DNA of 64,000 nucleotides, taken from NCBI GenBank assembly GCA_020161405.1, contig JAIUOD010000002.1, positions 310,001-374,000 on the forward strand, in the 5' to 3' direction. The stretch comes from Pseudomonadota bacterium. GTDB taxonomy: Bacteria; Pseudomonadota; Alphaproteobacteria; Caulobacterales; Aquidulcibacteraceae. Positions 51,683-53,559 of this stretch are shown here, piece by piece (position 1 is the first letter of the stretch; each line of letters opens with the position of its first letter). Under the pieces are notes generated by a model. It made no database searches. It was not told where the DNA came from and saw only the letters and a program-made list of their open reading frames with translations. Made by a program: the position numbers and the translations under genes.

Positions 51683-51756
51683 TGTGTAATAACGACGGAA
51701 AAATAATAGCATTTCGTTAAATATTATGAACGCGCCAAGACAGCGCCTTCAAGCCC

Positions 51757-51824: not shown

Positions 51825-52532
51825 ATGAAATTGAGAAATATTCTATTAGGTGCAACAATCATGTTTGGTTTTGCTGCGCCAGCCTTTGCACAAGGCGCAA
51901 TGCCGCCACCACCACCAAATGGTGCAGGTCATTTTGATATGGTTGATACAAACCATGATGGTTTTTTAAGCAAAGATGAAATCAAAGCCGAACATATGAA
52001 AAAATTCGATGCTATTGATGCAAATCGTGATGGCTTTCTTGTTAAAGATGAAATGAAATCTTTTCACGAAAAGCAAATGAAAAATCGCATGGATGGCAAA
52101 CAAGATCGCCGTATTGAGCATCTTGACGAAAACAATGATGGCGTAATTACAAAAGAAGAATGGGTAAATGGCCCAGAACGCGCACGCAAATTAATGGCCG
52201 AACGTATGGCAAAACGCTTTGACGAACTTGATACCAATAAAGATGGCAAATTAAGTTCAGATGAGCTTAAAAATATGAAAATGCGTGGCCCAGATGGTAA
52301 AGGCAAAGGCAAATTTGGTATGGATCGTCCAAAGATGAATGATCCAGATTCAAATAAAGATGGCAAAATATCACGAAGCGAATGGTCTGCTATGCCTGTT
52401 CCAATGTTTGATAAAGCAGATAACAATCATGATGGAAAAATAAGCCGTGAAGAAGCCCGCAGCGCTATGGAAAAAGGCCCTAAGCATGGCCCTAAACATG
52501 GTGAAGGCGGCTTTATGCCAAAAGGTCAATAA
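51825..52532 (+). CDS. Exported protein with six EF-hand calcium-binding loops
   Basis: 235 residues. The signal peptide (hydrophobic 5-19) is cleaved after FAQ (about 23). Six EF-hand loops of form DxNxDGxxxxxE follow: 41-52 (DTNHDGFLSKDE), 65-76 (DANRDGFLVKDE), 101-112 (DENNDGVITKEE), 136-147 (DTNKDGKLSSDE), 175-186 (DSNKDGKISRSE) and 199-210 (DNNHDGKISREE). All six have the full acidic ligand set. A Lys/His/Gly-rich tail closes the protein. It should bind calcium in the periplasm. It is 3 bp upstream of an ECF sigma factor gene and shares that transcript with a small membrane protein, suggesting a calcium-linked envelope signalling unit. That role is inferred. Confidence 0.87.
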   Translation: MKLRNILLGATIMFGFAAPAFAQGAMPPPPPNGAGHFDMVDTNHDGFLSKDEIKAEHMKKFDAIDANRDGFLVKDEMKSFHEKQMKNRMDGKQDRRIEHLDENNDGVITKEEWVNGPERARKLMAERMAKRFDELDTNKDGKLSSDELKNMKMRGPDGKGKGKFGMDRPKMNDPDSNKDGKISRSEWSAMPVPMFDKADNNHDGKISREEARSAMEKGPKHGPKHGEGGFMPKGQ

Positions 52533-52535
52533 TAT

Positions 52536-53132
52536 ATGACCAGCGCTTTATTAGTCTTTGACCCTTTATGCGGTTATTTGAAAAAAGCCTCCATTGGTGA
52601 CAAGGAGGCGGCAAAAGCGCTGGTCAATAATATTTCGCCAAAATTATTTAGGACGGCATATAGGCTTTTAGGAAATTCACACGATGCCGAAGAAGCAACG
52701 CAAGAAACGCTTATAAAATTATGGAAGATTGCGAAAGATTGGAAAACTGGAAATGCCAAGATTGAAACTTGGTGTTATCGGGTTTTAACTAATCACTGTT
52801 TTGATAAATTACGTGCTAAAAACCGCTATATTTTCGACGAAATAGATGAAAATATTCAAGCGAATGAAATTCACACCGATGACATAATTGCGCGTGGTGA
52901 GATAAGAAATCAAATTGATTTGGCGCTTGATAAATTACCTGCGCGCCAAAAAACTGCGATAATTATGACTTATTTTGAAGGTTTAGGTGCAAAAGATGTT
53001 GCCGCAAGCCTTGATTGCACGATTGAGGCAGTTGAATCTTTGCTTGCACGCGCTAAAAAAGCTTTGAAACAATGTCTGCAAGAGCATGATGAAAACTTTG
53101 GACAAAATATTATGTCTTTTGCATTGAATTGA
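52536..53132 (+). CDS. ECF-type RNA polymerase sigma factor
   Basis: 198 residues. Region 2 (about 30-95) contains LFRTAYRLLGNSHDAEEATQETLIKLWKIAKDW and TWCYRVLTNHCFDKLRAKNRY, which bind the -10 element. Region 4 (about 130-185) contains LDKLPARQKTAIIMTYFEGLGAKDVAASL and the HTH EAVESLLARAKKAL for the -35 element. There is no region 1.1 or 3, the ECF hallmark. It lies 3 bp after the EF-hand gene and 7-10 bp before a small membrane protein that is the likely anti-sigma factor. The start ATG 52536 immediately follows the EF-hand stop. The ECF group is not determined from sequence here. Confidence 0.88.
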   Translation: MTSALLVFDPLCGYLKKASIGDKEAAKALVNNISPKLFRTAYRLLGNSHDAEEATQETLIKLWKIAKDWKTGNAKIETWCYRVLTNHCFDKLRAKNRYIFDEIDENIQANEIHTDDIIARGEIRNQIDLALDKLPARQKTAIIMTYFEGLGAKDVAASLDCTIEAVESLLARAKKALKQCLQEHDENFGQNIMSFALN

Positions 53133-53142
53133 GAATGAAATG

Positions 53143-53532
53143 ATGGATCAAGATTTTAAAAATATTTTATCACAAGCAAGCAATCCACCAGATTGCCCAA
53201 ATGATAAGTTTATTGATGTTTTTTTGGCGCAAATGGACAAGGATTTAGCGCCTGCTACTAAAGCTGCGCCAAGTAATAAGATGTTCCTTTATGGTTCAAT
53301 GGCGGCGGCTTTCTTGGTTATTATTGGTACAAGCTTTACAATTGGTCGCAATAATTCCGATTTTAATATCGCGCATGTTTTCAATAAAGGGCAAAATGTT
53401 GCCCCTTATAATGATGCCGAAATTATCGATGTGATTGATAAAGAAATTGCCGAAGATGATTTCGCCGCCCAATTAACCGGCGATGAAGATATAAGCACAA
53501 TTGTGCCTATAAACAAAACAAGCAATCCTTAA
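53143..53532 (+). CDS. Small membrane protein, likely anti-sigma factor
   Basis: 129 residues from ATG 53143 (an ATG at 53140 is equally possible). A cytoplasmic N-terminal region of about 45 residues precedes one membrane helix (about 46-66, MFLYGSMAAAFLVIIGTSF). The periplasmic part (about 67-129) is acidic (DAEIIDVIDKEIAEDDFAAQLTGDED). Size, single-pass topology and position directly after a sigma gene suit an anti-sigma factor or sensor subunit; there is no ZAS zinc motif (HxxxCxxC). The acidic periplasmic tail could respond to cations or to the EF-hand partner, which is speculative. A terminator follows directly. Confidence 0.65.
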   Translation: MDQDFKNILSQASNPPDCPNDKFIDVFLAQMDKDLAPATKAAPSNKMFLYGSMAAAFLVIIGTSFTIGRNNSDFNIAHVFNKGQNVAPYNDAEIIDVIDKEIAEDDFAAQLTGDEDISTIVPINKTSNP

Positions 53533-53559
53533 AAAGCGCCCTTATGGGCGTTTTTTTTT
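53531..53559 (+). terminator. Intrinsic terminator of the EF-hand/sigma operon
   Basis: The stem CGCCC (53537-53541) and GGGCG (53546-53550), extended by A-T pairs, with loop TTAT, is followed by nine T residues. It begins at the stop codon of the membrane protein gene. Confidence 0.88.

Follow-up and report, generated by a model that had tools for sequence, protein, structure and literature searches.

Little is understood of the way in which bacteria read the calcium outside the cell. In Caulobacter vibrioides, the CaBP-SigV circuit (CCNA_02838/02837), published in 2026, couples an EF-hand protein to an ECF sigma factor, and induction of both cabp and sigV is reported when calcium is limiting and in acid, whereas excess Ca2+ influenced promoter activity less strongly (PMC13171946). 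SigV strongly drives cabp, from a promoter mapped by RACE as GGAAA-13-CGTTCA whose activity is SigV-dependent, and overexpression of CaBP raised sigV transcripts, albeit modestly; with EGTA or in acid, deletion of cabp left the activity of the cabp promoter almost unaltered (PMC13171946). The study names no anti-sigma factor and leaves the membrane link of the circuit as a question mark (PMC13171946). A second point of reference is CnrYXH of Cupriavidus metallidurans, in which the periplasmic protein CnrX is thought to signal via CnrY to the sigma factor CnrH (PMC4598750), and two helices of CnrY, a class II anti-sigma factor, embrace CnrH (PMC4598750, PMC7406223). A third is found in Sinorhizobium, where the ECF26-type RpoE1 is encoded between a putative lipoprotein gene and the gene of an anti-sigma factor with a single transmembrane (TM) segment (PMC6180224).

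The locus described here lies in a 64,000-nucleotide stretch (the window) of an alphaproteobacterial genome of the Caulobacterales. Three open reading frames follow each other on the plus strand, separated by 3 bp between the EF-hand and sigma genes and by 7 bp between the sigma gene and the third frame, ORF3 (Table 1). The gene upstream is glnE, and rpmG is found downstream, past a terminator-like hairpin and on the opposite strand. Note that this hairpin is a reading of the sequence, the hairpin scan having reported the stem on the minus strand only. The first-pass annotation had proposed genes spaced by 3-10 bp, the first for a six-loop EF-hand protein that is exported, the next for an ECF sigma factor and the last for a membrane protein of the single-pass type devoid of a zinc motif; we recover the same gene set and the same close spacing, export and membrane location being predictions.

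Table 1. Features of the three-gene operon and its flanks, in window positions.
Feature	Position	Strand	Description
Predicted ECF promoter CGAC-GGAAA-N13-CGTTAA	51693..51720	+	~100 bp 5' of the EF-hand start codon
Perfect inverted repeat, 13 bp, 14-nt loop	51766..51805	+	Predicted 5' UTR of the EF-hand gene
EF-hand protein, predicted exported	51825..52532	+	235 aa, six canonical loops
ECF sigma factor	52536..53132	+	198 aa
ORF3, predicted single-pass membrane protein, proposed anti-sigma factor	53140..53532	+	130 aa
Terminator-like hairpin CGCCC-TTAT-GGGCG then nine T	53537..53559	+	Directly after ORF3; sequence reading

The first protein matches the Pfam EF-hand profile PF13202 over six stretches (E 1.5e-34), with 12-residue canonical loops that begin at residues 41, 65, 101, 136, 175 and 199, and its N-terminus, MKLRNILLGATIMFGFAAPAFAQ, resembles a Sec signal. 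Its AlphaFold model has a mean pLDDT of 72.7. Searched with Foldseek, this model retrieves calmodulin-like proteins with poor superposition (TM <0.35), and therefore adds only the EF-hand fold; matches among solved sequences are likewise calmodulin-like proteins. Elsewhere in the window's genome (G000:C5, about 645114-645908; L002), a second EF-hand protein is encoded; it measures 264 aa, lacks an obvious signal peptide and has no adjoining sigma gene.

The spacing of the loops brings lanmodulin to mind, another periplasmic EF-hand protein, for which 12-residue linkers between paired loops are a stated hallmark (PMC10232371). Such linkers separate the first and last loop pairs of the window protein and are the commonest across its family (82 cases), and the NCBIfam lanmodulin (LanM) model gives a weak match of 53.7 bits. 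A response to a trivalent or transition metal instead of calcium, in the manner of lanmodulin, would fit these features. However, the score falls well below the 135-bit cut-off of the model, the other loop gaps of the window protein measure 23-27 residues, and the solved-sequence matches point to calmodulin. The loop residues argue in the same direction: position 9 is nearly always S/T across the family, and proline at position 2 occurs in one counted loop only and in none of the six window loops. Score and loop residues together rule out membership of the lanmodulin family, and we regard a metal other than calcium as very improbable; calcium is the likelier ligand. The association with a sigma gene is a further difference from lanmodulin.

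The second gene encodes a protein that scores above the Pfam cut-offs for sigma region 2 (PF04542) and region 4 (PF08281) and above that of TIGR02937 (E 5e-29); with sigma-70 regions 2 and 4 and no long region 3, it has the make-up of an ECF sigma factor. ORF3 finds no family match in Pfam or NCBIfam. It contains one hydrophobic segment, at about residues 48-66, beyond which its tail is acidic (12 D/E versus 4 K/R). The HxxxCxxC zinc motif is absent from ORF3, which has one cysteine in total; zinc is not needed in every class I anti-sigma domain (PMC7406223). The AlphaFold model, of low confidence (pLDDT 52, and ~50-60 over the helices and TM segment), places cytoplasmic helices at residues 3-11 and 21-35, the TM segment at 48-67 and periplasmic helices thereafter, so that the predicted layout consists of a cytoplasmic part of ~47 residues with two helices, a single TM segment and an acidic periplasmic tail. 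This layout, and only the layout, resembles that of CnrY, as far as the model can be trusted. An ORF3 profile searched against solved sequences gave no match up to E 10, CnrY included, and profiles of the longer ORF3 forms found in relatives gave nothing meaningful in the same sequences. This missing match to CnrY is weak evidence, because even established members of class II, NepR and CnrY among them, are dissimilar in sequence (PMC4598750). Short and long forms of ORF3 share a juxtamembrane segment (profile match over 30 columns, E 5.6e-5), and a YGADxxRWP motif forms part of the long N-terminal region of the long forms and is missing from the short ones.

The first-pass annotation had also suggested checking whether the operon and its order are conserved, and they are. 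A homologue of the sigma factor is present in 87 of the 101 genomes from the same genus, family and order (E 1e-15). We then considered 60 wider neighbourhoods collected from the same order, in 58 of which the sigma frame could be delimited: an EF-hand frame immediately precedes the sigma gene in 54 of these 58 loci and a single-TM frame immediately follows it in 50, the exceptions partly reflecting the limits of the loop and TM filters. In several of them, a frame of 92-159 aa overlaps the sigma gene by 4 bp and failed the hydrophobicity threshold alone. Since the gene set is conserved to this extent (sigma homologue in 87/101, EF-hand gene 5' in 54/58), a chance arrangement is excluded, and on the comparative sequence evidence the three-gene operon is a real, conserved and coherent feature.

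In the relatives, the operon most often includes a fourth gene. A gene of the PF13801 family follows the single-TM gene in 46 of the 58 loci, frequently with a 4-bp overlap. This family comprises periplasmic metal sensors of the CnrX type, CnrX itself among them. Of the 30 best-scoring loci across the class, among them the window's own and three more from its order, 21 carry the EF-hand gene and 26 the fourth gene; a few of the 30 are truncated where their contigs stop. The annotation of a plasmid of Phaeobacter sp. G2 reads, in order, EF-hand domain-containing protein, RNA polymerase sigma factor, hypothetical protein and periplasmic heavy metal sensor. In the genome of the window, rated 100% complete, PF13801 has no match anywhere, the operon included. 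A search on plasmids with the CnrX-like protein of one relative gave no match. Operon anatomy, conserved order, promoter motif (see below) and the absence of the fourth gene can be read directly from the genomes, and by this comparison the window operon represents a reduced version of a module that occurs throughout the Alphaproteobacteria.

Absence of the fourth gene goes together with changes in the other partners. The TM segment of the membrane protein is found near residue 50 in loci lacking the PF13801 gene, as against ~95 otherwise, and EF-hand proteins of 5-6 loops are encoded at 13/13 loci lacking the gene but at 2/42 loci with it, the others having about 3-4 loops. The association is strong (Fisher p 7e-11), with the reservation that the sequences are related and hence non-independent. 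In the sigma tree, the loci lacking the PF13801 gene form two groups, from which two independent losses were suspected; a single origin is allowed (AU p 0.32). Because a single origin is not rejected, the loss should be counted as one or two evolutionary events, and the apparent link between loss of the fourth gene and gain of EF-hand loops rests on that number of events.

Upstream of the EF-hand gene, we found the sequence GGAAA-N13-CGTTAA at positions 51697-51720, with a -35/-10 spacing identical to that of the mapped Caulobacter cabp promoter. The corresponding pattern GGAA-N14-CGTT occurs within 160 bp upstream of 22 of 54 homologous EF-hand genes, compared with 32 of 3580 background windows (0.9%), from which ~0.5 occurrences would be expected. 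The N15 form is present at 4 of the 54 genes, and the remaining spacings between 8 and 23 add up to one case. The spacing also rules out an EcfG promoter: the general-stress motif is GGAAC-N16-CGTT (PMC7083833), and the distribution peaks at GGAA-N14-CGTT with none at N17. As this motif of fixed spacing matches the SigV-dependent cabp promoter, positive autoregulation of the operon by its sigma factor is well supported at the level of sequence.

The promoter data also bear on ORF3. It could be a separate small membrane protein with no anti-sigma function, the sigma factor then being controlled by transcription only, for instance by SigT/EcfG; ORF3 has neither a family nor a structural match, and overexpression of SigT raised sigV expression in Caulobacter (PMC13171946). 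Set against this are a promoter spacing that differs from the EcfG motif, the position of ORF3 with its frequent -4 bp overlap, its retention together with the sigma gene in 50 of the 58 loci, and a predicted course from cytoplasmic helices through a TM segment to a periplasmic tail. We consider an ORF3 unrelated to sigma control improbable. Position, gene order and predicted layout suggest instead that ORF3 is a probable membrane anti-sigma factor.

Other targets of the sigma factor are less clear. The perfect pattern CGACGGAA-N14-CGTT has two sites in the genome of the window, one before the EF-hand gene and the other (G000:C3:416501-416526) 32 bp before an outer-membrane gene (G000:C3:416558 on) that encodes a TonB-dependent receptor-like protein (PF14905 and PF00593). 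The same receptor-like gene is preceded by the site in one relative (G001) and not in another (G004). Over 13 genomes the promoter pattern gives 19 matches, versus at most 17 for the reversed control, so that single sites are weak evidence and the TonB-dependent receptor and other predicted targets should be taken as leads only. The same pattern was also seen before a DUF4405 membrane protein gene in G004 and G002 (L194, L195) and before genes for HlyD/MacA-like membrane-fusion proteins in members of two further families of this order (L200 in G061, L210 in G060).

Between the promoter and the EF-hand gene, the inverted repeat (Table 1) consists of arms GCAAGATGTTTGC and GCAAACATCTTGC around the loop CAGCCCCCCATTTA. 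It folds far better than shuffled sequences (z -4.7) and is also present in a close relative (G003). It has no T-run, and no Rfam match near the gathering score was obtained; the repeat may serve as an operator or as part of a regulatory leader.

We propose that the locus is an autoregulated operon of an ECF sigma factor and its membrane anti-sigma factor, with a periplasmic EF-hand partner, and that it responds to cations. This is the best explanation we have, to which we assign a probability of about 45%. The short N-terminal two-helix segment of ORF3 would tether the sigma factor at the inner membrane, as CnrY does with CnrH. The trigger would be an altered cation status of the periplasm, most likely the loss of bound Ca2+ upon calcium limitation or acidification; the EF-hand protein would relay this change to the ORF3 tail, and the freed sigma factor would transcribe its own operon from GGAA-N14-CGTT together with a few envelope genes. 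In the lineage of the window, from which the PF13801 gene is gone, the enlarged EF-hand protein would be the only periplasmic cation binder encoded in the operon. We infer the anti-sigma role of ORF3, the sensing role of the EF-hand protein and the sign of the signal, the latter being set as Ca2+ loss because the Caulobacter genes are induced by calcium limitation and acid. The reading of the locus as a calcium-signalling operon thus stands in part: the operon keeps its gene order among relatives, has its own ECF-type promoter and encodes a non-zinc single-pass protein in the anti-sigma position, all of which speak for it. Release of the sigma factor by calcium binding in the periplasm, as the first-pass annotation worded it, is not supported by the Caulobacter data, in which calcium limitation and acid induce, excess Ca2+ acts more weakly and deletion of cabp barely mattered under EGTA (PMC13171946).

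The EF-hand protein may, however, be the output of the system, i.e. a periplasmic calcium buffer or envelope stabiliser and a main target of the sigma factor, while ORF3 or an unlinked envelope component senses. We hold this to be a serious possibility, at somewhat less than even odds. Its gene comes first in an operon headed by a sigma-type promoter, SigV strongly drives cabp while the cabp promoter responds little to deletion of cabp, with EGTA as in acid (PMC13171946), and the protein need not sense wherever a CnrX-like sensor is present. An output role accounts for this deletion result no less well than sensing does. Conversely, the lineage of the window lacks the PF13801 gene yet keeps the EF-hand protein, with more loops, and overexpression of Caulobacter CaBP did raise sigV transcripts, if modestly (PMC13171946). 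The choice between sensor and output is nearly even. Within the sensing reading, a stronger version would have the EF-hand protein of this lineage replace the CnrX-type sensor and serve as a calcium receptor in the periplasm, with direct control of an ECF sigma factor via a minimal anti-sigma factor; we think this rather unlikely. The three-gene form of the window is a natural minimal case for asking if an ECF sigma factor can be controlled by nothing more than an EF-hand protein.

The comparison offers new testable pieces for the Caulobacter circuit as well. The gene 3' of the sigma gene is a candidate for its missing anti-sigma factor, and the PF13801 gene is a candidate second sensor: the PF13801 protein could be the Caulobacter sensor if its gene sits at the cabp-sigV locus.

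With respect to known systems, the first-pass annotation had named none of this composition, a statement overtaken by the CaBP-SigV publication of 2026 (PMC13171946) and by the CnrYXH-like character of the usual four-gene form. The likeness to Sinorhizobium (RpoE1/3/4/6) consists of two features, the -35 element GGAATA and the RpoE1 order of lipoprotein, sigma and anti-sigma genes, and no EF-hand or PF13801 partner is reported for these ECF26-type systems (PMC6180224). With CnrYXH, the operon has in common an ECF sigma factor, a short single-pass membrane protein and a periplasmic metal-binding partner, and its relatives in addition a gene of the CnrX family (PF13801). The window operon differs in having an EF-hand protein and no CnrX-like gene, and thus does not carry the PF13801 sensor gene of a CnrYXH-type operon; ORF3 has no detectable similarity to CnrY, and the sigma factor is distantly related to CnrH (E 1.3e-5). 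The likeness to CaBP-SigV, from the same bacterial class, consists of a gene for a periplasmic EF-hand protein immediately before an ECF sigma gene and a GGAAA-N13-CGTT(C/A)A promoter, and the window has this layout, with a predicted exported EF-hand gene, an adjoining sigma gene and GGAAA-N13-CGTT. The Caulobacter CaBP is a protein of 133 aa with three EF motifs, versus 235 aa and six loops here, and the Caulobacter genes are reported to be transcribed separately, sigV having an intragenic promoter (PMC13171946), whereas those of the window form an operon. The Caulobacter control genome has matches to PF13202 and encodes a PF13801 protein somewhere; the genome of the window encodes no PF13801 protein. 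Judged by these sequence comparisons, the window operon can be placed among the CnrYXH-like ECF systems as a new variant, with the published CaBP-SigV circuit as a relative.
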